From Magnetospirillum sp. XM-1 (GTDB lineage Bacteria; Pseudomonadota; Alphaproteobacteria; Rhodospirillales; Magnetospirillaceae): a stretch of 64,000 bases of DNA. The stretch is taken from contig NZ_LN997848.1 of the NCBI RefSeq assembly GCF_001511835.1, positions 1,488,001 through 1,552,000 of the forward strand, read 5' to 3'. Made by a program: the position numbers and the translations under genes. Below, in pieces: positions 12,629 through 64,000 of the stretch. The notes under the pieces were generated by a model. It saw only the letters and a program-made list of their open reading frames with translations, had not been told where the DNA came from and made no database searches. The stretch's first letter is position 1. Each line of letters opens with the position of its first letter.

Positions 12629-12640
12629 GATCGGCCTCCC

Positions 12641-29181: not shown

Positions 29182-29369
29182 GCGCTTATCCCCCGACTTC
29201 CCTTGGCTGCGGCCCATTGCCGCCTCGAAGCTTGCCCGAATCATACGTCAGGCGATGGAATCTTGCCAATTCGTATGTTGATAAACCCTTAAAAGGGCGG
29301 CGCCGCGTTGACGCCCCGCCAGAGGCCCCCTATCCTCAAATGTGTATTCCATCAGGAACGGAGCGGCAG

Positions 29370-46314: not shown

Positions 46315-48372
46315 TTACCGCCCCTTCTTTCCCTTGCCCTTGGGGGCGGGCGCCGGCTTGGCCGTGCCCGCCTTCCTCAGGCGGGTATCCGGGCCAATGG
46401 GGCAGTGGCGGTTGATCTCGTCCATCCGGGCCCGGTAGAGGTCGAGGTAATCGGGACGCGACAGCAATTCCACTTCGTCACTGTCGAGGTCGGTGCCGAC
46501 CTCGTCGTAGATGTCCATGTTGGCGAGGTCGGGAACCGGAATGCGGTCGGCCAGGAAGTCGTTCCACATGCCTTCCAGCAGATTGTCCAGATGGGTCACC
46601 AGCTTGTCGGTGTCGAACAGGTCGCAGGTGGCGCGGTTGGCCGCCAGCCTGTCGCGGTAGCCGGCCAGCAGGCGCTTGTCGTTGCCCAGCTCCACCGCCT
46701 TTTCCACGTATTCGTCGAAGGTGGTGCAGACCAGTTCCTCGAGCCCGGCGGCGGTGGCCAGGCTGCCGCAGACGCGCGACGCGAAGCCGCGCCCGGCCAC
46801 GGTCAGCACCGGAACGCCCATCCACAGCGCGTCCGACGCGGTGGTGTGGGCGCCGCAGGGCGAGGTGTCGAGGAACAGATCGGCCAGGGGATAGCGCGAC
46901 AGGTGCTCGGCATTGATGATCTTGGGCGCGAAGATGATGCGGTCGGGGGTGACGCCGTGCTTGATGGCCTCCTGGCGCAGGTTCTCGTTGATGCGCTCGC
47001 TACCGTCCAGCAGCCACAGCACGCCGTTGGGAACGCGGCTAAGGATGTCCATGAAGCGGGCCCACATGGGGGCGGTGAACTTCTGCAGCCCGTTGAAGCC
47101 GCAGAACACGATGGCGTTGGCCGGCAGGCCCGCCGCCTCGCGCGTCCACTTGATGTCGGCCACCTGCCGGTTGCGGTCGTTGGGCTGGTAGCAGGGCAGC
47201 CGCACCACCTTCTCTGAGTAGTAGATCTCGTGATCGGGCGGAATGGTGAAGTCGTCGGCGATGATGTAGTCGTGGTAGGGCGTGCCCATGGAGCCGGGAT
47301 AGCCCAGCCAGCTGACGGCCACCGGGGCCGGACGCATGGCCATGATGGCCGGGCGCGCCTCGCCGGTATAGCCGTTGAAATCGATCAGGATGTCGATGCC
47401 GTCGGCATGGATGCGCTTGGCCACGTCCTCGTCGGACATCTCCAGGATGTCGACCCAATGGTCGAAATCCTTCATCAGCTGGTTCTGGATGCGGTCCCCG
47501 GTGCGGCGCGAGCAGGAATAGGCGAAGACCTCGAAGCGCGAGCGGTCGTGCAGCTTGTACATCTCCGCCGTCAGGTAGCCGTGGGCATGCTCCTTGAAAT
47601 AGGACGACAGGTAGGCGATGCGGATCTTGCGCTTGGGCCGCTTGGCCAGGGCGGCGCGGTGGCTGTCCTTGTCGAACAGCACCTTGGGCCGCCCGATCTT
47701 GGCCTTGTAGTACTTCCAGCCGCGCGCCAGGTGCAGCAGCGGGTCGTCGGTATGGAAGACCAGGCAATGGGGAGACATGGCCGAGAACAGCTGGCGCCGG
47801 GTGGTGCCGGGAATGCCGGTCAGCACCGGCCACTTGCACAGCTTCTGGCGGATGGCGATCCAATGCTGCATGGCGTCGGCGGGCTGGACCAGCTCGATGC
47901 ACTGGCGCAACGCATCCTCGCCCGATTCCTCCAGCGAGGTGTGTTCGAGCACGCGGCCGATCTGCTTCAAGGCCGAGACCTTGAAGTTCACCGTGTCGCC
48001 GGTGACGCCGGGCAGCTGGTTGACCAGCCCCAGCCACTGGGTCACGGCGTCGGGGACGCGGCCCAGGCGCTCGTAGGTGCTGCCCAGGTTGATGTGGGCG
48101 GGGTAGAAATCCTGCTTCAGGGCGATGGCGGCGCTGAACGCCTGCACGGCGGCTTCGTGGTCGTTGAACTTGTTCAGCAGCACGCCGAGATTGTACTGGA
48201 TGGCGTAGGCCAGCGGGTTCTGGCCGTTGTATTGCAGCCAGGTGCGGTAGAGGCCAAGCGCGTCGGCGTCGGCGCCCTGCTGGGCCAGGCTGTCGGCGGC
48301 GGCGATGACGCGGGTGGCTTCGATCTTGCCGGACGCGATCTGTTGCATGACCTCGGCCATGACGTTGCTCAT
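46315..48372 (-). CDS. TPR-GT41 glycosyltransferase, copy 3
   Basis: 685 residues. TPR-like helices over about 1-190 (A-L-G-L-Y-R-T-W-L-Q-Y-N, A-H-I-N-L-G-S-T-Y-E-R-L-G). GT41 catalytic region from about 240 (I-R-I-A-Y-L-S-S-Y-F-K-E-H-A, I-D-I-L-I-D-F-N-G-Y-T, V-S-W-L-G-Y-P-G-S-M-G) with the donor site G-A-H-T-T-A-S-D-A-L-W-M-G-V-P. The C-terminus ends in a Lys/Gly/Pro-rich tail. ATG 48372 overlaps the upstream copy's stop (TGATG) with GGAGAACGG as ribosome site. It is the last gene of a run starting with the giant repeat protein. Confidence 0.92.
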   Translation of the reverse strand: MSNVMAEVMQQIASGKIEATRVIAAADSLAQQGADADALGLYRTWLQYNGQNPLAYAIQYNLGVLLNKFNDHEAAVQAFSAAIALKQDFYPAHINLGSTYERLGRVPDAVTQWLGLVNQLPGVTGDTVNFKVSALKQIGRVLEHTSLEESGEDALRQCIELVQPADAMQHWIAIRQKLCKWPVLTGIPGTTRRQLFSAMSPHCLVFHTDDPLLHLARGWKYYKAKIGRPKVLFDKDSHRAALAKRPKRKIRIAYLSSYFKEHAHGYLTAEMYKLHDRSRFEVFAYSCSRRTGDRIQNQLMKDFDHWVDILEMSDEDVAKRIHADGIDILIDFNGYTGEARPAIMAMRPAPVAVSWLGYPGSMGTPYHDYIIADDFTIPPDHEIYYSEKVVRLPCYQPNDRNRQVADIKWTREAAGLPANAIVFCGFNGLQKFTAPMWARFMDILSRVPNGVLWLLDGSERINENLRQEAIKHGVTPDRIIFAPKIINAEHLSRYPLADLFLDTSPCGAHTTASDALWMGVPVLTVAGRGFASRVCGSLATAAGLEELVCTTFDEYVEKAVELGNDKRLLAGYRDRLAANRATCDLFDTDKLVTHLDNLLEGMWNDFLADRIPVPDLANMDIYDEVGTDLDSDEVELLSRPDYLDLYRARMDEINRHCPIGPDTRLRKAGTAKPAPAPKGKGKKGR

Positions 48373-50393
48373 CAACCGTTCTCCGTGTCAGGGGCGGGCC
48401 ACATGCGAGTGTCCGCCGGGATGGGGTAAAGGTGGTCGAGCGCGGCGAGGCCCTTGCGCCAGCGGGCGAAGTACTCGTCTTCCGGAACGAAATCCACGAC
48501 TTCCACGGGGTGTTCGACGCCGACGTCCATATAGGTGTCGAGGTTGCGCAGGTCGGGGCAGGGCAGGCGTCCGGACCTGAAATCGTCCCACATCTCGGCA
48601 AACAAACCCTCCAGCCGGCTGACCAGAAGATTGGTGTCGAACATCACCGCGTTGGGCTTGGCGTCGCGCAACTGCTTGCGGTAGGCCTGCAGCTTCGCGG
48701 GGTCGTGGCCCAGCGCGATGGCTGTCTCCACGTATTGTTCGGGGGTCGAGCACACCAGTTCCGGCAGGCCCGCCGAACGCAACAGCGAGCCGGCGACGCG
48801 CGACGCGAAGCTGTGGCCCGACAGGGTCAGGATCGGCACGCTCATCCACAGGGCGTCCGACGCGGTGGTGTGGGCGCCATAGGGGAAGGTGTCGAGGAAC
48901 AGGTCGGCGAGCGTCATGCGGGCCAGATGCTCGGGGCTGGGCAGCCGGCGGCCGAAGATCAGGCGTTCGCTCTCGATGCCGCACTGGCGGGCATGGGCGC
49001 GCAGGCGCTCCTGGACCTCGTCGCTGGTTTCCAGCAGCCACAGCACGCTGCCCGGCACCGCCGCCAGAATGGCGACCCAGCGCTCGAACATCAGCCGCGT
49101 GATCTTCTGCTGGCTGTTGAAGCAGCAATAGATCATTCCCTCTTCCGGCAAACCGGCCTCGGCGCGGCTGGGCGGCTGGACGGCCACCGCCCGCTGGCGG
49201 TCGTTGGCCTGGTAGCAGGGCAGACGCATGACCTTTTCCGAGCAGTACATGTCGCGGCCGGGCGGAATGATCCAGTCGTCGGCGATGATGTAATGGTGGT
49301 AGGCCGTGCCCATGGTGCCGGGATAGCCCAGCCAGTTGACGTTGATGGGGGCCGGGCGCATGCCGAACAGCTTGGTCCGGGCGCCCTTGGTATGGCCGTT
49401 CAGGTCCACCAGGATGTCGATGCCGTCGTCGCGGATGCGCTGGGCCGCCGCGTCGTCGTTCATGCCGGTGATGTCGAGCCAGTGGTCGAAATCGCCGCGG
49501 ATGCGCTGCTTTAACGGGTCCTCGCCGGCGGGGCCGCAGTAATAGGCGAAGATTTCCACCTTGGAACGGTCGTGCAGGGCGAAGATTTCGGCGATCAGAT
49601 AGCCCACCGCATGGGCTTTCAAATCCGATGACACATAGCCGATCTTGAGGCGGGTCCGGTCGGCGCGGTCTTCCGGCCGGATTTCGGGCAGGCGGGCAAT
49701 GCGCCGACCGAACATCTTGTTGCTGTGCTCCCAGGCCGAAGCCAGGTGCAGCAGCGGGTCGTCGGTATAGGACGACAGCGACAGCGGGCTGAAATTGCGC
49801 ATCTGGGTCAGGTGGTCCATGCCCTCGAAGGGCACCACCACCGGCCAGCGGCACTGGGCCATGCGCCCGGCCAGCATGTGCTCGGCGTTCTCGCGCTGGG
49901 TGTTGTCCAGCTCCAGGCTCTGGCGCAGGGTGTCCTCGGCGGCGACGGATTGCTGGCGGTCCTGCAGCACCCGGGCAATCTGCTTCAAGGCCGTGGCCTT
50001 CATGCGGACGGCATGGCCGGTCACCTGGGACAGCCGGCTGACCAGCCTGTTCCAGGTCTCCACCGCCCCATCGGGCGAGCCCAGCGCCTCGTTGGCACCG
50101 CCCAGGTTGATGTAGGCGGGATAGAAGTCCGGATTGTGCTCGATGGCCCGTTCCAGCGCCGCCTTGGCCTGATCGGGCTTGCCGCTCGCCGTGTGCAGCA
50201 CCGCCTGGTTGAAGCAGGCGGCATAAAGCAGGTGATGATCCGGGTTGAGGCCGATCCACAGGTGATAAAGCTGCAACGCCTGTTCGACTGCGCCGCCACG
50301 ATGCAGCGTGTCGGCGGCGCCGAACAACTCCTGCAGGGACAGGCGGCCCTCGGTCAGGGCCTTCACGGCGGACAGAAAGACTTCCTGGGTCAT
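48372..50393 (-). CDS. TPR-GT41 glycosyltransferase, copy 2
   Basis: 673 residues, clearly paralogous to the adjacent copy (same order of TPR and catalytic segments; L-K-I-G-Y-V-S-S-D-L-K-A-H-A, I-D-I-L-V-D-L-N-G-H-T, V-N-W-L-G-Y-P-G-T-M-G, G-A-H-T-T-A-S-D-A-L-W). Cytoplasmic protein Ser/Thr or Asn glycosyltransferase by family. ATG 50393 has GGGA upstream; an ATG at 50405 in the same frame is possible. It begins about 210 bp after the stop of the giant Thr-rich gene on the same strand. Confidence 0.92.
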   Translation of the reverse strand: MTQEVFLSAVKALTEGRLSLQELFGAADTLHRGGAVEQALQLYHLWIGLNPDHHLLYAACFNQAVLHTASGKPDQAKAALERAIEHNPDFYPAYINLGGANEALGSPDGAVETWNRLVSRLSQVTGHAVRMKATALKQIARVLQDRQQSVAAEDTLRQSLELDNTQRENAEHMLAGRMAQCRWPVVVPFEGMDHLTQMRNFSPLSLSSYTDDPLLHLASAWEHSNKMFGRRIARLPEIRPEDRADRTRLKIGYVSSDLKAHAVGYLIAEIFALHDRSKVEIFAYYCGPAGEDPLKQRIRGDFDHWLDITGMNDDAAAQRIRDDGIDILVDLNGHTKGARTKLFGMRPAPINVNWLGYPGTMGTAYHHYIIADDWIIPPGRDMYCSEKVMRLPCYQANDRQRAVAVQPPSRAEAGLPEEGMIYCCFNSQQKITRLMFERWVAILAAVPGSVLWLLETSDEVQERLRAHARQCGIESERLIFGRRLPSPEHLARMTLADLFLDTFPYGAHTTASDALWMSVPILTLSGHSFASRVAGSLLRSAGLPELVCSTPEQYVETAIALGHDPAKLQAYRKQLRDAKPNAVMFDTNLLVSRLEGLFAEMWDDFRSGRLPCPDLRNLDTYMDVGVEHPVEVVDFVPEDEYFARWRKGLAALDHLYPIPADTRMWPAPDTENG

Positions 50394-50570
50394 CGGACGT
50401 CCCATCGGGTTGGGTCAAATCGTCCCGGCGGCGTGCGAACGTGCCGGGGCCGACGTCCATAATGACCGCCCAATGGTTAACGGATTGATGCCGGATTTCG
50501 TTCCGCCGCCAAGCACCGTTCGGCCAAGCGAATGCCATCCCCGGAAAGGGGGCGGCGCCGCCGGGAAGGG

Positions 50571-50605: not shown

Positions 50606-53600
50606 TTAGGTGTTGGTGTTCGAACCGCTGATTGCCCAGAAGTAGGCGTTCTGCTGGTCGGTGTTGAGGGAACTGATGGCTGCGCCCTGGATCGCATTGG
50701 CCTGGGTGGTGGTCAGGGCGTAGATGTCGGTGGTCTCGAGGCCGACGATCTGCGTGGTGGTCAGGCCGTCGATCTGGGTCGTGGTCAAGCTGTTCGCCTG
50801 GGTGGTGGTCAACGCAGCGATGTTGGCCGAGGTCAGGGCGTTCAGCTGGGTAACGGTCAAGGCCTTGATATCGGTGGTTTCGAAGGCCGCCGTCACCGTG
50901 CTGGTCAGTGCGCCCAGTTGGGTGACCGTCAGGCCGCCGATCTGGGTGGTGGTCAGACCCGCCACATTGGTGGTGGTGAGCGCGTTGAACGCGGTGGTGC
51001 TGAGCGCGCCGACCCCGGTCGAGGCCAGAGCCCCGATCTTGGCGGCGGTCAAACCCGTCGCCTGGGTATCGGTCAGGGCACCAACCTGGGTGACCGACAG
51101 GGCGGCCATATCGGTGGTCTCCAGCGCGTTCAGCTGGGTGGTGGTCAGACCCGTCACCTGCGTGGTGGAGAGGCCGCCCACCTGGGTGGTGGACAGCGCC
51201 ACGACCTGGGTGGTGGTCAGCGAGTTGAGGCTGCTGGTGGACAGGGCCCCGATCTCGGTGGTGGTCAGCACCGCCAGGTTGGTGGTGGTGATCGCCGCCG
51301 CCTGGGTGGTGGAGAGGCCGCCGATCTGGGTCGCGGTCAGCGACGCGAGGTCGGTGGTTTCCATGGCGTTCAGCTGGGTGGTGGTGATGCCGGCCACCTG
51401 GGCGGTGGTCAGGCTCTGCACCTGGGTCACCGACAGGGCCACCAGATCCGTGGTCTCCAGCGCGTTCAGCTGGGTGGTGCTGAGGCCGGCCACCTGGGTG
51501 GTGGTCAGGCTCTGCACCTGGGTGGTGGTCAGGGCCACGACGCCGGTGGTGGTCAGCGCGTTCAGCGTGGTGGTCGAGAGAGCCGCCAGATCGGTGGTCT
51601 CGATGTTCACCAGCTGGGTGGTGGTCAGACCCGCCGCCTGGGTGGTGGTCAGCGCCGCCACCTGGGTGACCGACAGGCCGGCCAGGTCGGTGGTCTCCAT
51701 GGCGTTCACCTGGGTGGTGGAGAGGCCCGCCACCTGGGTGGTGCTCAGGTTCGAGAACTGAGTGGTGGTGAGAGCCGCCACGTCGGTGGTCTCGAGGGCG
51801 TTCAGCTGGGTGGTGCTGAGACCGCTGACCTGGGTGGCGGTCAGGTTGACGACCTGGGTGCTGGTCAGCGCCGCCACACCGGTGGTGGTCAGAGCGTTGA
51901 GCGCCGAGGTGGTCAGTGCCGCCAGATCGGTGGTCCCGATATTGATCAGCTGAGTGGTGGTGATGCCGGTCGCCTGGGCCGCGGTCAGCGAGGCGGCCTG
52001 GGTCGAGCTCAGCGAGGCCACGCCGGTGGTCGACAGGGCGTTCACCGCGGTGGTGCTGAGGCCGGCGACCTGGGTGGTCGACAGAGCGGAGATCTGCGTG
52101 GTGTTCAGTCCGCCGGCGCCGGTGGTCGACAGAGCGTTCAGCTGGGTGACGCTCAGCGAGCCGACTTCAGTGGTGGACAGGCCGGACACCGAGGTGGTGG
52201 TCAGCGCGTTGACCTGGGTGGTGGTCACCGAAGCCAGCTGAGTGGTGGAGAGAGCCGCGATGTCGGTGGTTTCCATCGCGTTGACCTGGGTGGTCGAGAG
52301 ACCGCCGACCTGGCCGACCGTCAGAGACTGGACCTGGGTGGTGGACAGGGCCGCCACGTCGGTGGTCTCGAGAGCGTTCAGCTGGGTGGTCGACAGGCCG
52401 CTCACCTGGGTGGTGGTCAGCGAGGAGACCTGGGTCGAGGTCAGGGCGACTACGCCGGTGGTGGTCAGCGAGTTCAGCTGGGTCGCCGAGAGCGCCGTAA
52501 GGTCGGTGGTCTCGATGTTGATCAGCTGGGTGGTGCTGATGCCGGCCACCTGGGTGGTGGTGACGTTCGCCACCTGGGTCGAGGACAGGCCCGCGATGCC
52601 GGTGGTGGACAGCGCGTTCAGGTTGGTGGTCGACAGGCCGGCCACCAGGGTGTTGGTCAGGCCGGACAGCTGGGTGGTGTTCAGCGCCGCCGCACCGGTG
52701 GTGGTGAGCGCGTTCAGCTGGGTGACCGAAAGCGCGCCGACCTCGGTGGCGGTGACGCCGGCCAGGGCGGTGGTGGTGAGGCCCGCCAGCTGGGTGGTGC
52801 TGATGTTCGCCACCTGGGTGGTGGAGAGCGCGGCCACGTCGGTGGTTTCCAGGGCGTTGACCGTGCTGGTGGTCAGGCCCGCCACCTGAGTGGTGGTCAG
52901 AGCGCGCACCTGGGTCGAGGTCAGGGCCGCCACGTCAGTGGTTTCCAGGGCGTTCAGCTGAGTGGTGCTGATACCCACGGTCTGGGTGGTGGTCAGCGAC
53001 GAGACCTGGGTCGAGCTCAGAGCCGCGACGCCGGTGGTGGTCAGCGAGTTGATCTGCGTGGCGGACAGGGCCGTCACGTCGGTGGTCTCGATGTTCACCA
53101 GCTGGGTGGTGGACAGGCCGGCCACCTGGGTGGTGGTCAGGTTGGAGACCTGGGTCGAGGTCAGGCCCGCCACGTTGGTGGTGGACAGCGCGTTCAGCTG
53201 GGTGGTGGTGATGCCGGACACCGTGGCGGTCGAGATGCCGGCCACCTGGGTGGTGGTCAGGGCCGCCAGCGTGGTGGTGGTGAGCGAGTTGACCTGGTTG
53301 GCGGACAGCGCACCGGCCTCGGTCGCGGTGATGCCGGACAGAGCGGTGGTGGTCAGGCCGGCCACCTGGGTGGTGGTGATGCCCGACACCTGGGTGGTGG
53401 TCAGGGCCGCGATGTCGGTGGTCTCCATCGCGTTGACCTGGGTGGTGGTCAGACCGCCGACCTGGGTGGTGGTCAGCGACTGCACCTGAGTGGTGGAGAG
53501 CGCGGCCAGATCCGTGGTCTCGAGGGCATTCAGCTGGGTGGTGCTGACGCCGGAGACCTGGGCGGTGGTGAGCGACGAGACCTGGGTCGAGGTCAGGGCC

Positions 53601-56600
53601 ACAACGCTGGTGGTGTTGAGCGCGTTGAGATGGGCGGCCGAGAGCTGCACCAGGTCGGTGGTCTCGATGTTCACCAGCTGGGTGGTGGACAGGCCGGCCA
53701 CCTGGGTGGTGGTCAGGTTGGAGACCTGGGTCGAGGTCAGGCCCGCCACGCCGGTGGTGGACAGCGCGTTCAGTTCGGTGGTGCTGAGGCCGGACACCGT
53801 GGTGGTGCTGAGGCCGGTCAGCTGGGTGGTGTTCAGCGCGGCCGCGCCGGTGGTGGTCAGGGAGTTGACCTGGGTGGAGGTCAGCGCCCCGGCCTCGGTC
53901 GCGGTGATGCCGGACAGGGCGGTGGTGGTCAGGCCGGCCACCTGGGTGGTGGTGATGCCCGACACCTGGGTGGTGGTCAGGGCCGCGATGTCGGTGGTCT
54001 CCATCGCGTTGACTTGGGTGGTGGTGATGCCGGCCAGCTGGGTGGTGGTCAGCGAACGCACCTGGGTGGTGGTCAGCGCGGCCACGTCCGTGGTCTCAAG
54101 GGCGTTCAGCTGGGTGGTGCTGATGCCGGGGACCTGGGCGGTGGTCAGCGAGGACACCTGGGTGGAGGTCAGGGCCGCCACGCCGGTGGTGGTCAGTGCG
54201 TTGGCCTGGGTGGCCGAGATCGCCGCGATGTCGGTGGTCTCGATGTTCGCCACCTGGGTGGTGGACAGGCCGGCCACCTGGGTGGTGGTCAGCGCGGCCA
54301 CCTGGCTCGAGGCCAGGCCGGCGACGCTGGTGGTCGACAGGGCATTCAGCTCGGTGGTGGACAGGCCGGCCACGACGGTGGTGGACAGGCCGGACACCTG
54401 GGTGGTGGTGAGCGCCGCCGAGTTGGTGGTGGTCAGCGTGTTGACCTGGGTGGTGGTCAGCTCGGCGATGCCGGTGGCGGTCAGGCCGGACAGCGTGGTG
54501 GTGGTCAGCGCCGCGATCTGGGTGGTGTTCACCGACCCGATCTGGGTGGTGGTCAGCGCCGCCACGTCCGTGGTCTCCAGCGCGTTGACCTGGGTGGTCT
54601 TCAGGCCGTCGATCTGGGTGGTGGTCAGCGAGCGGACCTGAGTGGTGGTCAGCGCGGCCACGTCCGTGGTCTCGAGCGCGTTCAGCTGGGTGGTGCTGAT
54701 GTTCGAAACCTGGGCGGTGGTCAGCGAGGACACCTGGTTGGCGGTCAGGGCCGCCACGCCGGTGGTGGTCAGCGAGTTCAGCGCGGTTGCCGAGATGGCC
54801 GAGATGTCGGTGGTCTCGATGTTCACCAGCTGGGTGGTGCTGATGCCCGCCGACTGGGTCGAGGTCAGCGCGGCAAGCTGGGTCGAGCTCAGGCCGGCGA
54901 TGGCGGTGGTGGTCAGGGCGTTGACCAGGGTGGTGGTCAGGCCGGCCAGGTTGGTCGCGGTCAGGCCGTCCAACTGGGAGGTGGTCAGAGCAGCGGCGTT
55001 GGTGGTGGTCAGCGCGTTGATCTGGGTGGTGGACAGAGCGTTCACCTCGACGGAGGTGATGCCCGACAGGGCCGTGGTGTTCAGGCCACCGGTCTGGGTG
55101 CTGGTGATGCCCGACACCTGGGTGGTGGTCAGGGCGGCGATGTCGGTGGTCTCCATCGCGTTGACCTGGGTGGTGGTCAGTCCGCCCACCTGGGTGGTGG
55201 TCAGCGAGCGCACCTGGGTAGTGGTCAGGGCCGCGAGGTCGGTGGTCTCCAGCGCGTTCAGCGTGGTGGTGGACAGGGCCGCCGCCTGGGTGACGGTCAG
55301 GCTGATGGCCTGGGTGGTCGACAGCGCCGCCACGTTGGTGGTGGTCAGGCCGTTGAGGGCCGTGGCGGTCAGCGCCGTGACCTCGGTGGTGGTCAGGTTG
55401 GTCAGCTGGGTGGTGGACAGGCCGGCCGACTGGGTCGAGGTCAGCGCGCCCACCTGGGCGGTGGTCAGGCTGGAGATGCCCGTGGTCGACAGGGCGTTGA
55501 TCAGCGTGGTGGTCAGGCCGGCCACGTTGGTCGCGGTCAGGCCGTCCAGCTGGGTGGCGGTCAGGGCAGCGGCGTTAGTGGTGGTCAGCGCGTTGATCTG
55601 AGTGGTGGTCAGCGCGTTCACCTCGGTGGAGGTGATGCCCGACAGCGTGGTGGTGGTCAGCGCGCCGGTCTGGGTGCTGGTGATGCCCGACACCTGGGTG
55701 GTGGTCAGGGCCGCGATGTCGGTGGTCTCCATCGCGTTGACCTGGGTGGTGGTCAGGCCGCCCACCTGGGTGGTGGTCAGCGAGCGCACCTGAGTGGTCG
55801 TCAGCGCGGCGACGTCCGTGCTCTCCAGGGCGTTCAGCGTGGTGGTGCTGATGGTGCTGACCTGGCCGGTGGTCAGGCTGCTGACCTGGGTCGAGGTCAG
55901 GGCCGCGATGCCGGTGGTGGTCAGCGCGTTGACCTGGGTGGCGGTCAGCGAGGCCGCCTGGGTGGTGGTCAGGTTGACCAGCTGGGTGGTGGAGATGCCG
56001 GCCAGCTGGGTGGTGGAGATGCCGTCCAGCTGGGTGACGGTCAGGGCCGCCACGTCGGTGGTCTCGAGCGCGTTGACCTGGGTGGTGGTCAGGCCGCCGA
56101 TCTGGGTGGTGGTCAGCGAACGCACCTGGGTGGTGCTCAGCGCCGCCACGTCGGTGGTCTCGAGAGCGTTCAGCTGGGTGGTGGACAGGCCCGAGACCTG
56201 GGTGGCCGACAGGTTCGGCACCTGGGTCGAGGTCAGGGCGGCCACGCCGGTGGTGGTCAGCGAGTTCAGCGACGTCGCCGACAGGGCGGCGATATCGGTG
56301 GTCTCGATGTTCACCAGCTGGGTGGTGGAGATGCCGGCGGTCTGGGTCGAGGTCAGCGCGCCGACCTGCGTGGAGGTCAGGCTGGCAACGCCGGTGGTGG
56401 TCAGGGCGTTCAGGTTGGTGGTGGACAGGCCCGCGACCTGGGTGGTGGTCAGGCCGTCCAGCTGGGTGGCGTTCAGGGCCGCCGCGCTGGTGGTGGTCAG
56501 CGCGTTGACCTGGGTCACCGACAGGGTGGCGACCTCGATGGAGGTGACGCCGGACAGGGTGGTGGTGTTCAGGCCGGCCACCTGGGTGGTGGTCAGGTTG

Positions 56601-59600
56601 GAGACCTGGGTGGTGGTCAGGGCCGCCACGTCGGTGGTTTCCATCGCGTTGACCTGGGTAGTGGTCAGCGACGAGACCTGGGTGGTGGTCAGCGAGCGCA
56701 CCTGAGTGGTGTTCAGGGCGGCGACGTCGGTGGTTTCCAGCGCGTTCAGCTGGGTGGTGCTGAGGCCGGACACCTGGGTGGTGGTCAGCGAGTCGACCTG
56801 GGTGCTGGTGAGCGCCGCCACGTTGGTGGTGGTCAGGACGTTGAGCACCGTGGCGGTCAGGGCGCGCAAATCGGTGGTTTCGAGGTTGGCGACCTGGGTG
56901 CTGGTCAGCGCCGCCGCCTGGGTGGTGGACATGCCGGCCACCTGGGTGGCGGTCAGGCTGGCCAGGCCGGTGGTCGACAGGGCGTTCAGCGTGGTGCTGG
57001 TCAGTCCGCCGAACTGGGTGGCGGTCAGGCCGTCCAACTGGCCGGTGGACAGGGCGGCGGCCGACGTGGTGGTCAGCGCGTTCAGCTGGGTGGTGGACAG
57101 GCTGCCCACCTGGGCCGAGGTGACGCCGGACAGGGTGGTGGTGCTCAGGCCGGTGGCCTGGGTGGTGGTCAGGTTGGCCACCTGGGTGTTGGTCAGGGCG
57201 GCGACGTCGGTGGTCTCCATCGCGTTGACCTGGGTGGTGGTCAGCGACGACACCTGGGTGGTGGTCAGCGCCCGAACCTGGGTGGTGTTCAGGGCGGCGA
57301 CGTCGGTGGTCTCCAGCGCGTTCAGCTGGGTGGTGTTGAGGCCCGACACCTGGGCGGAGGTCAGCGAGTCGACCTGGGTGCTGGTCAGCGCGGCCACACC
57401 GGTGGTGGTCAGCGAGTTCAGCGAGGTGGCCGAGATGGCGCGGACCTCGGAGGTGGTCAGGTTGACCAGCTGGGTGGTGGTGATGCCGGCCGTCTGGGTG
57501 GTGGTCAGGTTGGCGACCTGGGTGCCGGTCAGGCTGGACAGAGTCGTGGTGTTCAGCGCGTTCAGGCTGGTGGTGGTCAGGTTGGCCACCTGGGTGGCGG
57601 TCAGGCCATCCGCCTGGGTCGCGTTGATCGCGGCGGAGCCGGTGGTGGTCAGCGCGTTCAGCTGGGTGGTGGACAGGCTGCCCAGCTGGGCCGAGGTGAC
57701 GCCCGACAGCGCGGTGGTGGTCAGGCCGGTGGCCTGGGTGGTGGTCAGGTTGGTCAGCTGGGTATTGGTCAGCGCGGCGACGTCGGTGGTCTCGAGCGCG
57801 TTCACCTGGGTGGTGTTCAGGGCCGAGATCTGGCCGGCGGTCAGACTCCGGACCTGGGTGGTGTTCAGCGCGGCGACGTCGGTGGTCTCGAGCGCGTTCA
57901 GCTGGGTGGTGCTGAGGCCGGACACCTGGGCGGAGGTCAGGCCATCCACCTGGGTGGTCGACAGGGCGGCCACGTTGGTGGTGGAGAGCGAGTTCAGCGC
58001 GGTGACCGACAGGGCACGCAGATCGGTGGTCTCGATGGCGCCGAGAGCCGTGCTGGTCAGGCCGCCGGACTGGGTGCTGGTCAGGGCCGAGACCTGGGTC
58101 TGGCTCAGGCCGGCCAGGGTGGTGGTGGCCAGGGCGTTCAGGCTGGTGGTGGTCAGGCCGGCCACGGTGGACGACGCGACACCCGACAGCTGGGTGGTCG
58201 ACAGGGTCGCCGCGCCGGTGGTGGTCAGCGCGTTCAGCTGGGTGGTGGACAGCGCCGACATTTCTGTCGAGGTCAGGCTGCCGATGCCGGTGGTGGTCAG
58301 GCCGGTGGCCTGGGTGGTGGTCAGGTTGCTGACCTGGGTGGTGGTCAGCGCCGCCAGATCGGTGGTCTCGATGGCGTTCAGGTTGGTGGTGGTCAGGCCG
58401 GCGATCTGGCCGGTGGTCAGGGCCCGGACCTGGGTAGTCGACAGGGCCGCGACGTCGGTGGTCTCGAGCGCATTCAGGGTGGTGGTGTTGAGGCCGCTCA
58501 CCTGGGTGGTGGAGAAGTTGCTCACCTGCGTGCTGGTCAGCGCCGCCAGGCTGGTGGTCGACAGCGAGTTCAGCTGGGTGGCCGTCAGGGTGTTGATCAC
58601 CGCCGAATTCAGGGCGACAGCCGCCGTGGTGGTCAGGCCGCCGGTCTGGGTGGTGGTCAGGCCGCGCAGCTGGGTGCCGGTCAGGCTGGACAGCGCGGTG
58701 GTGGTCAGCTGGTTCAGGTTGGTGGTCGACAGGCCGCCGACCTGGCCCGAACTCAGGGCTTCCACCTGGGTGGTGGTCAGCAGCACCACGTTGGTGGTGG
58801 TGAGCGAGTTCAGGTTGGTGGCGGAGAGCGAGCCCACCTGGGCCGAGCTCAGTTCGCTGACGAAGGTGGTGGACAGCGACGCCACCTGGGTGGTGTTGAC
58901 GCCGGTGACCTGCACCGAGGTCAGGGCGGCCAGGTCAGTGGTTTCCAGCGCGTTGAAGTGCGTGGTGTTCAGGCCGCCGACCTGGGCCGAGGTCAGCGAG
59001 CGGACCTGGGTGGTGGACAGCGCGACCACATCGGTGGTGTCGAGCGCGTTCAGCACGGTCGAGGTCAGGCCGGACACCTGAGCGGTGGCCAGGGCCGCGA
59101 CCTGGGTGCTGGTCAGCGCCGCCACGTTGGTGGTGGACAGGGCGTTCAGCGCCGTGGTGGTCAGCGAGGTGAGCTCGGTCGTCTCGATGTTGACCAACTG
59201 GGTGGTGCTGATGCCGGCACTCTGGGTGCTGGTCAGCGCGCGCAGCTGGGTCGCCGTCAGATTGGCGACCGCGGTGGTGGTCAGCGCGTTCAGGTTGGTG
59301 GTCGACAGGCCGGAGACCTGGGTGGTGGTCAGGCTGGACACCTGAGTGCTGCTCAGCGAGGCCGAGGCGGTGGTGGTCAGCGCGTTGATCTGCGCCGTGC
59401 TCAGGGCGCGCAGGTCGACGGTGGTGAGCTGGGCAGCCGAGGTCGAGTTGAGGGCGCCCAACTGGGTGGTGGACAGGGCCGCCGCCTGGGTGGCGGTCAG
59501 GACGCCGACGTCGGTGGTTTCCAGCGCGTTGACCAAGGTGGTGGTCAGGGCGCCGACCTGGGTGGTGGTCAGCGAGCGCACCTGGGTGACGGTCAGGGCC

Positions 59601-62600
59601 GCGGCGTCGGTGGTTTCCAGGCCGTTCAGGTTGGTGGTGCTGAGGTTCGACACCTGGGTGGCGGTCAGCGCGCTCACCTGGGTGGTGGTGAGCGCCGCCA
59701 CGTTGGTGGTGGTCAGCGCGTTGACCTGAGAGGTGGCCAGGGCCGACAGGCCGGTGGTGGCCAGCGCCGACGCGGCGGTGGTGGACAGCGCCGCCGCCTG
59801 GGTGGTGGTCAGACTCCGAGTCTGGGTGGCGTTAAGGGTTGCCAGACTGGTGGTCGACAGGGCGTTCAGGTTGGAGGTGGACAGGCCGGCCACCTGGCCG
59901 GTGGTCAGGGCGCCCACCTGGGTGCTGGTCAGGGCCGCCGCGTCGGTGGTGGTCAGCGCGTTCAGCTGCGTGACGTTCAGCGCCTTGATCTCGGTGGCGG
60001 TCAGCGCCGAGGCGTTGGTGGTCGACAGGCCGGAAACCTGGGTGGTGGTCAGGCCGGCGATCTGGCTGGCCGACAGCGCCGCGATGTCCGAAGTTTCCAG
60101 CGCGTTCAGCACCGTGGTGGTCAGACCGGCCACCTGGGTGGCGGTCAGGCCCTTCAGCTGGGCGCTGGTCAGGGCGGCGACGCCGGTGGTGTCGAGCGCG
60201 TTCAGCGTGGTGGTGCCGAAGCCGGCCAGCTGCGTGGCGCTCAGCGTGGTCTGCTGGGTGGTGGACAGCTCGGCGATATTGGTGGTCGACAGCGCGTTGA
60301 ACACGGCCGAGCTGAGAGCGCCCAGCTCCGTGGTGGTCAGCGACCCCGCCTGGGTGGAGGTCAGGCCGCCGACCTGGGTGGTGGTCAGGCTCTTGGCCTG
60401 GGTGGCGGTCAGGCCGGCGACGCCGGTGGTCGACAGCGCATTGAGGCTGGTGGTGCTGAGGTTGCTCACCTGGGTGGCGGTCAGAGCCGACACCTGGGTG
60501 GTGGACAGCTGGCCGGCGCCGGTGGTGGTCAGCGCGTTCAGCTGGGCGGTGGACAGCGCCTTCGCCTGGGTGGCCGACAGGCCCGAGATCTGGGTGGTGG
60601 ACAGGCCGCCGACCTGGGTGGTGGACAGGCCATTGATCTGCGAGGCGTTGAGCGCCGCAAGATCGGTGGTTTCCAGCGCGTTCAGCTGGGTGGTGCTGAG
60701 GTTGGTGACCTGGGTGGCGCTCAGGCCCTTCAGCTGTCGGCTGGACAGGGCGGCGACGTCGGTGGTCTCCAGCGCGTTCAGCTGGGTGCTGCTCAGGCCG
60801 GACACCTGGGTGGCGGTCAGCGAGGCCGCCTGGGTCGTCGACAGGCCGGCGACGTTGGTGGTGGTGAGCGAATTCAGGGTGGTGGCGGTCAGGCCGGACA
60901 GGTCTGTGGTTTCCAGCGCGCCGAGGGCGGCGGCGCTCAGGCCGGCCACCTGGGTGGTGGACAGATTCCGGGCCTGGGTCACGGAAAGGCCCGCGATGGT
61001 CGTGGTCGACAGGGCGTTCAGGTTGGTGGTGCTGAGGCCGGACACCTGGGTCGCGTTCAGCTGGCCGACCTGGGTGGTGGTCAGGGCCGCCGCGCCGGTG
61101 GTGGTCAGCGCGTTCAACTGGGCGGTGGACAGCGCCTTGGCTTCGGTGGCCGTCAGGCTGCCGACGGCGGTGGTGGTCAGCGCCGCCACCTGGGTGGTGG
61201 ACAGGCCGCCGACCTGGGTGGCGTTCAGCGCCGCCAGATCGGTGGTTTCAAGCGCGTTCACCTGAGTGGTGGTCAGGCCGCCGACCTGGGTGGCGGTCAG
61301 GTTGCGGAACTGGGTGCTGGTCAGGGCGGCCAGATCGGTGGTTTCAATCGCGTTGAGCGTCGTGGTGCTGAGGCCGCCGACCTGGGTGGCGGTCAGGACG
61401 GCCTGCTGCGTGGTGGACAGCGCGGCCACGTTGGTGGTCGACAGCGCGTTGATCACGGTGGCGGAGAGAGCCCCCACTTCCGTGGTGCTGAGCGATTGCA
61501 CCTGGGTGGTGGTCAGACCGCCCAGCTGGGTGGTGGTCAGACCCTTGGCCTGGGTGGCGGTCAGCTCGGCCACGGTGGTGGTGGTGAGCGAGTTCAGGTT
61601 GGTGGTCGACAGGCCCGACACCTGGGTGGCGGTCAGGGCCCGCAACTGGGTGGTGGACAGCTCGGCCGCGTTGGTGGTGGTCAGCGCGTTCAGCTGGGTG
61701 GCGGTCAAAGCCTTGGCTTCGGTCGCCGTCAGGTTGGTGAACTGGGTGGTGGTCAGCGCGGCCACCTGGGTGGTGGTCAATCCGCTGATCTGGGTGGCGG
61801 TCAGCCCGGCCAGGTCAGAGGTTTCCAGCGCATTCAACTGGGTGGTGCTGAGGCGACCGACCTGGGTGGCGGTCAGGCCCTTCAACTGGGCGGTGTTCAG
61901 GGCGGCGACGTCGGTGGTTTCCAGCGCGTTCAGCTGGGTGCTGCTCAGGCCGCCGATCTGGGTGGCGTTCAGCGCCGACACCTGGGTGGTGGACAGGGCG
62001 GCGACGCCGGTGGTGGTCAGCGCGTTCAGCTGGGTCGCCGTCAGGGTGGCCAGCTCGGTGGTTTCCACGCCGCTCAGCTGGGTGGTGGTCAGCGCGCCCA
62101 CTTGGGTGGTGGTCAGGGTCTTGGCCTGGGTGGCGGTCAGGCCGCCGATGCCGGTGGTCGACAGCGCGTTCAGGTTGGTGGTGCTGAGCGCCGCCACCTG
62201 GGTGGTGTTAAGCCCGGCCACCTGGGTGGTGGACAATTGGCCGGCATTGGTGGTGGTCAGCGCGTTCAGCTGCACCGTGGTCAGGGCGCGCAGCTCGGTG
62301 ACCGTCAACGACGAGGCGTTGGTGGTGGACAGCGCGGAGATCTGGGTGGTGGACAGCGCATTGATCTGGGCAGCGTTCAGCGCCGCGATGTCGGTGGTTT
62401 CGAACGCGTTCAGCTGGGTGGTGCTCAGCCCGGAAATCTGGGTGGCGTTCAGCGCACGGACCTGGGTCACGGACAGCGCGCCCACATTGGCGCCGGCCAG
62501 GGCGTTCAGCGTGGTGGTGTTCAGGCCGGAAACCTGCGCCGCGGTCAGGGCGCTGGACTGGGACGTGGTCAGCTCGCCCACATTGGTGGTGGTCAGCGCG

Positions 62601-64000
62601 TTCAGCGCCGTCACCTTCAGATTGGCGACGTCGGTGGTCTCCAGGGCGCCCAGCGTGGTGGTGTTCAGGCCGCCCACCTGGGTGGAGGTCAGGCTTCCGA
62701 CCTGGGCGATGCTCAGGCCGGCGACGCTGGTGGTCGATAGGGCGTTCAGGGCCGAGGTCGACAGGCTGCCGACCTGCGAGGTCTGAAGGGCGCCGACCTG
62801 GGTGGTGGACAGCTCGGCCGCCGCGGTGGTGGACAGATTGGCCAGCTGGGTGCCGCTCAGCGCCTTGATCTCGGTGGCGGTGAGGCTGCCCGCCAGGGTC
62901 GAGCTCAAATTGGCCAGCTGGGTGGTGGTCAGCTGGGCGACCTGCGCGGTGCTCAGGCCGGCGAAGTCGGTGGTCTCGAGCGCATTGACCTGGGTGGTGG
63001 TCAGGCCCTGCAGCTGGGTGCCCGTCAGGGCGCGCACCTGCGTCAGGCTCAGCCCGGCGATGCTGGTGGTCTTGAGCGCGTTCAGCGTGGTGGTGTTCAG
63101 GCTGCCCAGCTGAAGGGTGCCCACCGAACTCAGCTGAGACGTGGTCAGCGTGTTCAGCGCGGTGGTGCTCAGGGAGTTGATCACCGCGGCGGAGAGCGCC
63201 CCGGTCTGGGTCGAGCTCAACGACGACACCTGGGTCGAGGTCAGCGAGGCCGACTGGGTGGTGGTCAGGCCGCGCAGCTGCAGCGTGTTCAGCGCCGCCA
63301 GGGCGGTCGAGGACAGCTGTCCCAGATTGGTGGTGTTGAATCCGGCCAGCAGGGCGGAATTGAGGCCGCCCACCTGGGTCGCGGTCAGCTGGCCGACATT
63401 GGTGGTCGACAGGGCGTTGAGCAGGGTGACGCTCAGCGCGCCGATCTCGGCGCTGGTCAGGGCGCCGAGCGAGGTGGTGGTCAGCGCCCCCGACTGGGTG
63501 GTGGTCAGGCTGCTCAGCGACGAGGTCGCCAGCGCCGCCAGATCGGTGGATTCCAGGGCGTTCAGGTTGGTGGTGTTCAGCGAGCCGACCTGGGTCGAGG
63601 TCAGACTCTGGGCCTGGGTGGTGGTCAGGGCCGCCAGATTGGTGGTGTTCAGCGCGTTCAACGCGGCGCTCGACAGCCGCGCGACCTGGGTCGCGCTGAG
63701 GCCGGAGACCTGCGAGGAGGACAGGCTGGCAAATTGGGTGGTGGACAGGCCGCCGATCTGGGTAGCGGTCAGGGCATTGAGTTCGGTGGTCGACAGCGCA
63801 GCCGTCTTGGTGGTCGACAGGCCGGACAGCTGGGTGGTGGAAAGACCGGCGACCTGGGCGCCGCTCAGGCTGGACAGGCCGGTGGTGGTGAGCGAGTTGA
63901 GGCTGGTGGTCGAGAGGGTGGCGACGTGCGAGGTCTTGAGTGCGGCGAGCTGGGTGGTGCTGAGGACGGCGACGTCGGTGGTTTCAAGCGAGCCGATGAG
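50606..64000 (-). CDS. Giant Thr-rich octapeptide-repeat protein, N-terminus outside window
   Basis: At least 4,464 residues, still open at 64000. No in-frame ATG, GTG or TTG occurs between 63664 and 64000, so the true start is upstream of the window. Apart from a 30-residue tail (from N-A-I-Q-G-A-A to S-N-T-N-T) it is about 554 copies of an 8-residue unit: small residue, Leu/Ile, Thr/Ser/Glu, Thr, Thr, Gln/Asp, Val/Leu/Ile, variable. Thr is roughly a quarter to a third of residues; Cys and aromatics are nearly absent. Such composition suits a repetitive solenoid, surface or secreted. No transport signal is visible in the C-terminus. The neighbouring GT41 genes suggest O-glycosylation. Function unknown. 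Confidence 0.85.
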   Translation of the reverse strand, partial: LIGSLETTDVAVLSTTQLAALKTSHVATLSTTSLNSLTTTGLSSLSGAQVAGLSTTQLSGLSTTKTAALSTTELNALTATQIGGLSTTQFASLSSSQVSGLSATQVARLSSAALNALNTTNLAALTTTQAQSLTSTQVGSLNTTNLNALESTDLAALATSSLSSLTTTQSGALTTTSLGALTSAEIGALSVTLLNALSTTNVGQLTATQVGGLNSALLAGFNTTNLGQLSSTALAALNTLQLRGLTTTQSASLTSTQVSSLSSTQTGALSAAVINSLSTTALNTLTTSQLSSVGTLQLGSLNTTTLNALKTTSIAGLSLTQVRALTGTQLQGLTTTQVNALETTDFAGLSTAQVAQLTTTQLANLSSTLAGSLTATEIKALSGTQLANLSTTAAAELSTTQVGALQTSQVGSLSTSALNALSTTSVAGLSIAQVGSLTSTQVGGLNTTTLGALETTDVANLKVTALNALTTTNVGELTTSQSSALTAAQVSGLNTTTLNALAGANVGALSVTQVRALNATQISGLSTTQLNAFETTDIAALNAAQINALSTTQISALSTTNASSLTVTELRALTTVQLNALTTTNAGQLSTTQVAGLNTTQVAALSTTNLNALSTTGIGGLTATQAKTLTTTQVGALTTTQLSGVETTELATLTATQLNALTTTGVAALSTTQVSALNATQIGGLSSTQLNALETTDVAALNTAQLKGLTATQVGRLSTTQLNALETSDLAGLTATQISGLTTTQVAALTTTQFTNLTATEAKALTATQLNALTTTNAAELSTTQLRALTATQVSGLSTTNLNSLTTTTVAELTATQAKGLTTTQLGGLTTTQVQSLSTTEVGALSATVINALSTTNVAALSTTQQAVLTATQVGGLSTTTLNAIETTDLAALTSTQFRNLTATQVGGLTTTQVNALETTDLAALNATQVGGLSTTQVAALTTTAVGSLTATEAKALSTAQLNALTTTGAAALTTTQVGQLNATQVSGLSTTNLNALSTTTIAGLSVTQARNLSTTQVAGLSAAALGALETTDLSGLTATTLNSLTTTNVAGLSTTQAASLTATQVSGLSSTQLNALETTDVAALSSRQLKGLSATQVTNLSTTQLNALETTDLAALNASQINGLSTTQVGGLSTTQISGLSATQAKALSTAQLNALTTTGAGQLSTTQVSALTATQVSNLSTTSLNALSTTGVAGLTATQAKSLTTTQVGGLTSTQAGSLTTTELGALSSAVFNALSTTNIAELSTTQQTTLSATQLAGFGTTTLNALDTTGVAALTSAQLKGLTATQVAGLTTTVLNALETSDIAALSASQIAGLTTTQVSGLSTTNASALTATEIKALNVTQLNALTTTDAAALTSTQVGALTTGQVAGLSTSNLNALSTTSLATLNATQTRSLTTTQAAALSTTAASALATTGLSALATSQVNALTTTNVAALTTTQVSALTATQVSNLSTTNLNGLETTDAAALTVTQVRSLTTTQVGALTTTLVNALETTDVGVLTATQAAALSTTQLGALNSTSAAQLTTVDLRALSTAQINALTTTASASLSSTQVSSLTTTQVSGLSTTNLNALTTTAVANLTATQLRALTSTQSAGISTTQLVNIETTELTSLTTTALNALSTTNVAALTSTQVAALATAQVSGLTSTVLNALDTTDVVALSTTQVRSLTSAQVGGLNTTHFNALETTDLAALTSVQVTGVNTTQVASLSTTFVSELSSAQVGSLSATNLNSLTTTNVVLLTTTQVEALSSGQVGGLSTTNLNQLTTTALSSLTGTQLRGLTTTQTGGLTTTAAVALNSAVINTLTATQLNSLSTTSLAALTSTQVSNFSTTQVSGLNTTTLNALETTDVAALSTTQVRALTTGQIAGLTTTNLNAIETTDLAALTTTQVSNLTTTQATGLTTTGIGSLTSTEMSALSTTQLNALTTTGAATLSTTQLSGVASSTVAGLTTTSLNALATTTLAGLSQTQVSALTSTQSGGLTSTALGAIETTDLRALSVTALNSLSTTNVAALSTTQVDGLTSAQVSGLSTTQLNALETTDVAALNTTQVRSLTAGQISALNTTQVNALETTDVAALTNTQLTNLTTTQATGLTTTALSGVTSAQLGSLSTTQLNALTTTGSAAINATQADGLTATQVANLTTTSLNALNTTTLSSLTGTQVANLTTTQTAGITTTQLVNLTTSEVRAISATSLNSLTTTGVAALTSTQVDSLTSAQVSGLNTTQLNALETTDVAALNTTQVRALTTTQVSSLTTTQVNAMETTDVAALTNTQVANLTTTQATGLSTTTLSGVTSAQVGSLSTTQLNALTTTSAAALSTGQLDGLTATQFGGLTSTTLNALSTTGLASLTATQVAGMSTTQAAALTSTQVANLETTDLRALTATVLNVLTTTNVAALTSTQVDSLTTTQVSGLSTTQLNALETTDVAALNTTQVRSLTTTQVSSLTTTQVNAMETTDVAALTTTQVSNLTTTQVAGLNTTTLSGVTSIEVATLSVTQVNALTTTSAAALNATQLDGLTTTQVAGLSTTNLNALTTTGVASLTSTQVGALTSTQTAGISTTQLVNIETTDIAALSATSLNSLTTTGVAALTSTQVPNLSATQVSGLSTTQLNALETTDVAALSTTQVRSLTTTQIGGLTTTQVNALETTDVAALTVTQLDGISTTQLAGISTTQLVNLTTTQAASLTATQVNALTTTGIAALTSTQVSSLTTGQVSTISTTTLNALESTDVAALTTTQVRSLTTTQVGGLTTTQVNAMETTDIAALTTTQVSGITSTQTGALTTTTLSGITSTEVNALTTTQINALTTTNAAALTATQLDGLTATNVAGLTTTLINALSTTGISSLTTAQVGALTSTQSAGLSTTQLTNLTTTEVTALTATALNGLTTTNVAALSTTQAISLTVTQAAALSTTTLNALETTDLAALTTTQVRSLTTTQVGGLTTTQVNAMETTDIAALTTTQVSGITSTQTGGLNTTALSGITSVEVNALSTTQINALTTTNAAALTTSQLDGLTATNLAGLTTTLVNALTTTAIAGLSSTQLAALTSTQSAGISTTQLVNIETTDISAISATALNSLTTTGVAALTANQVSSLTTAQVSNISTTQLNALETTDVAALTTTQVRSLTTTQIDGLKTTQVNALETTDVAALTTTQIGSVNTTQIAALTTTTLSGLTATGIAELTTTQVNTLTTTNSAALTTTQVSGLSTTVVAGLSTTELNALSTTSVAGLASSQVAALTTTQVAGLSTTQVANIETTDIAAISATQANALTTTGVAALTSTQVSSLTTAQVPGISTTQLNALETTDVAALTTTQVRSLTTTQLAGITTTQVNAMETTDIAALTTTQVSGITTTQVAGLTTTALSGITATEAGALTSTQVNSLTTTGAAALNTTQLTGLSTTTVSGLSTTELNALSTTGVAGLTSTQVSNLTTTQVAGLSTTQLVNIETTDLVQLSAAHLNALNTTSVVALTSTQVSSLTTAQVSGVSTTQLNALETTDLAALSTTQVQSLTTTQVGGLTTTQVNAMETTDIAALTTTQVSGITTTQVAGLTTTALSGITATEAGALSANQVNSLTTTTLAALTTTQVAGISTATVSGITTTQLNALSTTNVAGLTSTQVSNLTTTQVAGLSTTQLVNIETTDVTALSATQINSLTTTGVAALSSTQVSSLTTTQTVGISTTQLNALETTDVAALTSTQVRALTTTQVAGLTTSTVNALETTDVAALSTTQVANISTTQLAGLTTTALAGVTATEVGALSVTQLNALTTTGAAALNTTQLSGLTNTLVAGLSTTNLNALSTTGIAGLSSTQVANVTTTQVAGISTTQLINIETTDLTALSATQLNSLTTTGVVALTSTQVSSLTTTQVSGLSTTQLNALETTDVAALSTTQVQSLTVGQVGGLSTTQVNAMETTDIAALSTTQLASVTTTQVNALTTTSVSGLSTTEVGSLSVTQLNALSTTGAGGLNTTQISALSTTQVAGLSTTAVNALSTTGVASLSSTQAASLTAAQATGITTTQLINIGTTDLAALTTSALNALTTTGVAALTSTQVVNLTATQVSGLSTTQLNALETTDVAALTTTQFSNLSTTQVAGLSTTQVNAMETTDLAGLSVTQVAALTTTQAAGLTTTQLVNIETTDLAALSTTTLNALTTTGVVALTTTQVQSLTTTQVAGLSTTQLNALETTDLVALSVTQVQSLTTAQVAGITTTQLNAMETTDLASLTATQIGGLSTTQAAAITTTNLAVLTTTEIGALSTSSLNSLTTTQVVALSTTQVGGLSTTQVTGLTTTQLNALETTDMAALSVTQVGALTDTQATGLTAAKIGALASTGVGALSTTAFNALTTTNVAGLTTTQIGGLTVTQLGALTSTVTAAFETTDIKALTVTQLNALTSANIAALTTTQANSLTTTQIDGLTTTQIVGLETTDIYALTTTQANAIQGAAISSLNTDQQNAYFWAISGSNTNT
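50699..64000 (-). repeat. Continuous 24-bp tandem array (octapeptide coding)
   Basis: The 24-bp phase is unbroken in every stretch examined from 50699 to the window end. Typical units encode A-L-T-T-T-Q-V-x. Synonymous and conservative differences between units show it is old or under selection, not a recent slippage product. Confidence 0.9.
51603..59763 (-). repeat. 576-bp (192-residue) super-repeats inside the octad array
   Basis: A landmark octad (N-I-E-T-T-D and its derivatives) recurs at 51939, 52515, 53091, 53667, 54243, 54819, 55395 and 55971, each exactly 576 bp apart, and again from 56307 to 59187 (56883, 57459, 58035, 58611). Two intervals (51603-51939 and 55971-56307) are 336 bp instead, 240 bp or ten octads shorter. 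Conservation fades toward both ends. Confidence 0.88.

Follow-up and report, generated by a model that had tools for sequence, protein, structure and literature searches.

A giant ALTTAQ octad-repeat protein of Magnetospirillum sp. XM-1, its rhythm of about 3.43 octads and its GT41 neighbours

The giant gene and its surroundings

The window, as the whole stretch of 64,000 nucleotides analysed here is called, belongs to a genome whose two contigs add up to 4,992,477 bases, 4,825,187 of them in the larger one. One end of it is filled by a gene consisting almost entirely of eight-residue repeats (octads), followed on the same strand by two glycosyltransferase genes. The features discussed below are:

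46315..48375, minus strand: TPR-GT41 glycosyltransferase 2 (PF13844, E 2.4e-85; gene calls; tree)
48372..50405, minus strand: TPR-GT41 glycosyltransferase 1, OGT/SPINDLY type (PF13844, E 1.2e-84, plus TPR; giant-adjacent group in the tree)
50606..64000, minus strand: giant ALTTAQ octad-repeat protein, window part (open frame, 4464 of 4586 codons; PF20080 in 158 stretches)
52515..56546, minus strand: 192-residue (24-octad) super-repeats with 576-bp landmarks (autocorrelation, unit identity, octad shuffles)
55829..56788, minus strand: 40-octad segment used as structure-model query (AlphaFold2: short helices in succession, one for each octad)

An open reading frame check gave 4464 codons before the stop in the minus-strand frame 50606-64000, and the gene extends 366 bp outside the window, its GTG start codon (coordinate 64366) being preceded by the ribosome site AGAAAGGGGG. 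The full protein would have 4,586 residues (454 kDa, pI 4.05) and no Cys at all; its first octad begins at about residue 8 and its last lies close to the C-terminal end, the 122 residues coded outside the window being octads by eye. The original prediction had proposed an extension past 64000 to find the N-terminus and any secretion signal; the N-terminus was located in this way, but the octads, starting at residue 8, have too short a stretch ahead of them for a Sec signal of the usual kind. When the giant was aligned with its orthologue in genome G043, 4491 codons were paired without internal gaps (the sole gap being the end missing from the fetched stretch) and dN/dS was 0.34. Therefore, the frame is under purifying selection and encodes a maintained protein. 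Three octad frames were found in the host genome, this one and two paralogues (L013 and L014).

In the window part, 557 complete in-phase octads were counted, against the 554 or so Thr-rich octapeptides first reported, with a hydrophobic residue in first position in 556 of them and the exact motif LTTTQV in 47. The seven landmarks from which 24-octad super-repeats spaced by 576 bp had been proposed all carry an [IL]STTQ[LV]xN octad followed by one of the IETTD- or LTTT-type, and the proposed hierarchy of 8 within 192 residues was borne out by residue autocorrelation, with maxima at lags 192 (0.636), 384, 576 and 768; the remaining multiples of 8 in the range to 768 gave 0.41-0.54, the background from composition being 0.143. 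The identity between octads 24 apart was 0.637, vs. 0.437 when octad order was shuffled 500 times (sd 0.006, maximum 0.455). The period is present through most of the gene, beyond 52515..56546, and the octad repeat spans nearly the whole protein.

About 200 bp separate the first GT41 gene from the 3' end of the giant gene, and the possible start of the second overlaps the end of the first. Both are probably co-transcribed. Each encodes a PF13844 domain together with TPR, and among solved chains the first is closest in sequence to O-GlcNAc transferases, to XcOGT and to SPINDLY. Before the giant, on the same strand, are genes for a radical-SAM protein, a group-1 glycosyltransferase and two NAD-sugar epimerases, as obtained by codon-based gene calling in which wrong-strand reading frames of this GC-rich genome were discarded. 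Elsewhere in the window, the region 10490-15217 (minus strand) contains an FlgK gene (858 aa, PF22638) beside one for a 712-aa protein without Pfam match at 1e-6.

Repeat family, predicted fold and rhythm of the octads

Searches with PF20080 (ALTTAQ repeat), a 38-residue sequence model, returned 158 stretches of the giant with 2004.7 bits, compared to a curated cut-off of 26.4 bits. Judged by this profile, the repeat is a member of a known Pfam family and not a new repeat family; an NCBIfam search with the giant gave zero matches. A profile search also matched a solved chain, PDB 9ZEM (HeliScrew4; E 2.8e-17 and 5.6e-23), of 120 aa with the same octad pattern (ALTPEQIA...), which from the depositors' name alone is probably a designed protein. 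Thus, the earlier view that the unit resembles nothing known has to be abandoned. A literature search, which covered few subscription papers and preprints, found no paper on HeliScrew4 or 9ZEM and nothing on the ALTTAQ repeat, on the fold, period or partners of PF20080, on HeliScrew or on a giant Magnetospirillum protein.

Among the matches listed, the repeat was present in 29 of the 55 genomes of the family, own genome included, and in a sample of the phylum it was found in 6 of 150, again own included (E 1e-10); Paramagnetospirillum caucaseum is among the named relatives. Giants of a Magnetococcales type (L104-L111) have frames of up to 5675 aa with alternating octads, i.e. a 16-residue unit. 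A Duganella giant (L048:5214-15212) has a 134-residue period, which is not a multiple of 8 and breaks the octad phase.

In the AlphaFold2 model of the 40-octad segment (pLDDT 93.5, pTM 0.84), 38 octads each contain a helix 4-6 residues long and strands are absent, although the model's confidence may be inflated by the repetitive input alignment, made of 22 segments of the same giant offset by 192 residues. A second model, based on the N-termini of 16 related loci, had the same mini-helices (pLDDT 93.9, pTM 0.86) with one irregularity, at residues 71-80, where a shift of one or two residues before F-x-x-x-Q-L is common to 8 of the 16 N-termini. An N-cap Ser or Thr closed by a capping box is a textbook helix motif, and the model helices start at octad position 3, which is compatible with S/T2 as the N-cap and Q5 as its capping-box partner. 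The octads are thus predicted to be a string of short N-capped mini-helices, a fold well supported by both models. Short helices capped at L-T-T-x-Q-V had been one guess of the original prediction and agree with this; its other guess, a beta-solenoid, and the likeness that it drew to ice-nucleation proteins fare badly with an all-helix model whose best family is PF20080.

Among fold matches, mesothelin (8FSL, 8CYH, 8CZ8) ranked first for the N-terminal model and also in Foldseek, with modest scores, and 9ZEM did not come up there (library to April 2026). A viral fold search gave four matches with E <= 0.001, all of them phage proteins with TM <0.2. Two uncultured phage proteins (BFVD A0A6J5Q6G8 and A0A6J5QPU1) match the mini-helix model with E ~2e-6, also with TM <0.2.

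The order of the octads was analysed by Fourier transformation with the octad as unit. Of 34 chosen giants entered, 33 had at least 40 in-phase octads (L048 dropped out), partial genes and L034, later recognized as L111, being left out of this test. A peak at 3.37-3.53 octads, within the band of 3.2-3.7, was detected in all 33, ranking first in 30 and second in three, and 0 of 100 shuffles reached it. The best single period over all giants was 3.43 octads (about 27.4 residues), and the strongest long lags of individual giants fall close to whole multiples of it: 24 octads in the window giant and in a Magnetococcales locus (L032), 14 in L029, 17 in L033 and L043, 31 in L031, L037 and L042 and 55 in L035, which correspond to 7.0, 4.1, 5.0, 9.0 and 16.0 turns for 24, 14, 17, 31 and 55 octads, respectively. 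The most self-similar lag per giant was on average 0.04 turn off register vs. 0.25 at random, with 3.43 fitted on the same data; the worst of the 33 was L072, whose strongest lag of 68 octads is 0.175 turn off. As the 33 giants are kin, many of them congeneric and three from one genome, their shared ancestry restricts how many cases of the rhythm are independent.

Residue preferences follow the cycle. In L011, T3, T4, E2, D5 and N5 lie on one side of it and A3, Q5 and G8 on the opposite one, and T3 and A3 were in opposite phase in all six giants that passed the threshold for both (11 examined). The out-of-sample Magnetococcales-type giants (seven frames of six genes, L104-L111) support the rhythm less clearly: a 2-octad alternation was strongest in six of the seven frames, and once it was removed a peak at 3.36-3.47 came first or second in all seven, reached within the band by at most 3 of 200 shuffles in five, whereas only two (L110 and L111) passed the shuffle test against any frequency. 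In remote adhesin-type homologues, a clear 3.4 peak was seen only in P0008 (16 of 39 being testable).

Other fundamentals, of 2.4 or 4.8 octads, were considered and rejected; both appear as secondary peaks. A period of 4.79 octads fitted worse overall than 3.43 (0.198 vs. 0.513), although it ranked above 3.43 in L057, and a peak at 2.4 octads would be expected from the aliased second harmonic of 3.43. A torsion-scan toy model was set aside, as it gave 557 left-handed and 0 right-handed solutions at 3.2-3.7, whereas the mesothelin match is right-handed.

Taken together, these regularities suggest a screw of about 3.43 octads per turn in space, with the 192-residue period looking like seven screw turns that come back in register with the octads. 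The plain reading of the lags would be that duplication units of 14, 17, 24, 31 and 55 octads keep the screw in register across lineages.

Association of the giants with a GT41 lineage

Among the matches listed, a co-directional GT41 gene was found directly 3' of the giant, at up to ~220 bp, in 22 of the 29 family genomes with PF20080, and within ~32 bp or touching it in 12 of those 22; gaps were measured to the edge of the tblastn match, and some giants are cut by contig ends. The exceptions were an upstream GT41 in G002, one on the opposite strand in G006 and G008, where HlyB and HlyD genes are present but no GT41 was found on the fetched stretch; G001, G005, G031 and G044 received no assignment. 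As the matches listed for GT41 amount to 0-21 per genome (34 in G041), usually two per gene, among thousands of genes, chance adjacency would be expected to be rare.

In a GT41 tree, all 43 giant-adjacent sequences fell on one side of a branch with SH-aLRT 98 and the 21 other rows outside it. The former include eight upstream or opposite-strand cases (two each from L036 and L042, and one each from L043, L049, L075 and L076), the latter are 20 distinct genes that form a chosen part of those listed, and the tree comes from a quick search with SH-aLRT only and long-branch warnings. No octad frames were found in the stretches fetched around these other GT41s. The association is not universal: only one of the three octad genes of the host genome has GT41 neighbours, GT41 was absent from the fetched flanks of L072 and L073 (the second octad genes of G048 and G041) and of L077, and in a set of 25 loci it was found in the fetched flank in 10 and not in 15.

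Gene order and tree together give good support to a link between these enzymes and the giant, and from it we infer that the GT41s would decorate the giant with sugar. NXS/T sequons were not above column shuffles in six of seven giants (e.g. 63 vs. 72.6 in L011) and exceeded them in L037 (60 vs. 35), where the column grid is mixed.

Three further observations were made on sugar genes. Another TPR-GT41 of the window is near genes for a cytidylyltransferase, a Gfo/Idh oxidoreductase and a DegT aminotransferase (29217-31166, plus strand, and 32122-35142, minus strand), a region that looks like a nonulosonate-type, perhaps flagellin, glycosylation locus and whose GT41 does not group with the giant-adjacent sequences in the tree. 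Epimerase-like proteins with N-termini alike by eye are encoded near the giant/GT41 pair in two lineages (L012:3173-4255 and L046:3034-4062, both on the minus strand) and may supply the donor sugar. An operon of L013 with sugar genes (two group-1 glycosyltransferases, Asn synthase and SIS/GATase) was considered and rejected, since opposite-strand genes lie between.

Proposed function and comparison with known systems

The reading that we favour, and regard as moderately probable as a whole, is a screw filament of mini-helices that is O-glycosylated by GT41 enzymes in the cytoplasm, exported by a type I route and deployed as a surface fibre or coat. The giant would form an extremely long filament, built of N-capped mini-helices. 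Within an octad x1-x8, L1 and V6 would face inward, S/T2 would be the N-cap, Q/D5 would close the capping box, as in the familiar motif, and residues 3 to 7 or 8 would form the helix. Each mini-helix would be rotated by about 105 degrees relative to the one before, with 3.43 octads or ~27.4 residues in a turn. This would place T3-T4 with E2, D5 and N5 on one face of the screw and A3, Q5 and G8 on the opposite one, and since 24 octads make seven full turns, 192 residues would be a natural duplication unit. Made without a Sec signal, the chain would be O-glycosylated on Thr and Ser by the two GT41s, whose TPR arms could follow the repetitive sequence, then leave the cell, most likely through a type I (HlyB/HlyD) exporter coded elsewhere in the genome, and, once outside, fold into a long screw through local contacts, yielding a glycosylated coat or fibre on the cell surface.

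Evidence on export bears on this reading and on its main competitor, an O-glycosylated scaffold or cytoskeletal rod that never leaves the cytoplasm and whose GT41s are regulatory enzymes of O-GlcNAc type. Such a rod would suit the lack of a usual Sec signal and of any clear membrane-spanning stretch (mean hydropathy over 19 residues at most 1.28). It would also suit the gene surroundings, as no exporter genes were found beside the window giant, the HlyB/HlyD relatives of the host genome being ~100 kb away and elsewhere, and among 30 family-genome loci (L011, L013, L014, L051-L077) such genes were in the fetched flank of only L074. However, HlyB-like ABC and HlyD genes flank the giants in L032, L035, L036 and L074, with the ABC gene only seen in L042, and among 39 homologues PF05860 was found in eight, PF13205 in two and a DUF4347-domain name in two, which we take to be surface-protein types. 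Low pI and absence of Cys, as in the giant, are a trait of type I secretion substrates. Many relatives have a hydrophobic tail after the last octad. Altogether a purely cytoplasmic rod seems rather unlikely, and a cell-surface fibre is our best guess, with the link to glycosylation stronger than that to secretion; adhesion, or a role as coat or matrix fibre, would be likely uses.

A different objection concerns the screw itself, as the 192-residue period could result from tandem duplication only, with no structural meaning and with a rhythm inherited by all giants. Copying did happen, as the same codon is used 192 residues further on more often than expected (0.741 vs. 0.675), and the giants are homologous, many of them congeneric. 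Nevertheless, neighbouring 192-residue units share only 44-84% protein identity, L013 and L044 have a weak 24-octad signal yet keep the 3.43 peak, and units of 14, 17, 31 and 55 octads also fall near whole turns, making duplication alone an improbable account.

We consider it more doubtful still that the giant is a flagellum-associated component exported by another route such as the flagellar apparatus. The FlgK gene of the window is 35 kb away, the paralogue L014 is near flhB and L048 lies between genes resembling fliR and flgL by eye (loci L051-L077 were left out of this neighbourhood check), but the window giant is flanked on both sides by glycan-type genes, not flagellar ones, and the exporter genes beside relatives are type I. 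Finally, a beta-solenoid binding ice or minerals, to which Thr-rich octads in register might point, is very improbable given a model of short helices without strand and PF20080 as the best family.

If the screw filament with its GT41s is taken one step further, the giants might constitute an undescribed glyco-export system, built solely as an 8-residue-helix screw (~24/7), with duplication limited to in-register units (14, 17, 24, 31 and 55 octads), each with its own GT41 lineage and exported by type I as a glycosylated fibre whose length would be ~0.1-0.2 micrometre. This wider proposal is tentative, and we would not quite bet on it. The 3.43-octad rule behind the 192-residue period and the dedicated GT41 lineage appear new. 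With them, the odd pairing of 8 and 192 becomes a structural rule that can be tested. They also provide a natural family for a screw-like repeat with one clear PDB chain found by sequence search, and point to a likely natural substrate of one bacterial GT41 lineage.

Among known proteins, HeliScrew4 (9ZEM) shares the octad pattern of the giant but is just 15 octads long. Ice-nucleation proteins are beta-solenoids of 16-residue repeats, whereas the model of the giant is all-helix and no such Pfam family was matched. Unlike RTX proteins, the window part of the giant has no match to the glycine-rich nonapeptide repeats (PF00353). With regard to the enzymes, the arrangement resembles that of the large surface adhesin HMW1, which receives its sugars in the cytoplasm from a GT41 enzyme, HMW1C, coded beside it (PMC3983070); at the giant locus too, a GT41 gene adjoins that of a large presumed substrate. 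HMW1C has an AAD domain, not TPR, and makes N-links, and HMW1 is exported by Sec and two-partner secretion (PMC3983070), whereas the GT41s of the giant carry TPR and are not AAD-type N-glycosyltransferases, and the window part of the giant has no match to the two-partner secretion domain PF05860. FlmG of Caulobacter is a soluble flagellin O-glycosyltransferase acting in the cytoplasm before export, with its N-terminal part proposed for substrate specificity and its C-terminal part being the transferase (PMC7591256); it differs in its substrate, flagellin, and its donor is pseudaminic acid. The logic of the giant and its GT41s would resemble that of HMW1/HMW1C and FlmG/flagellin, whereas fold, enzyme type and route would differ.
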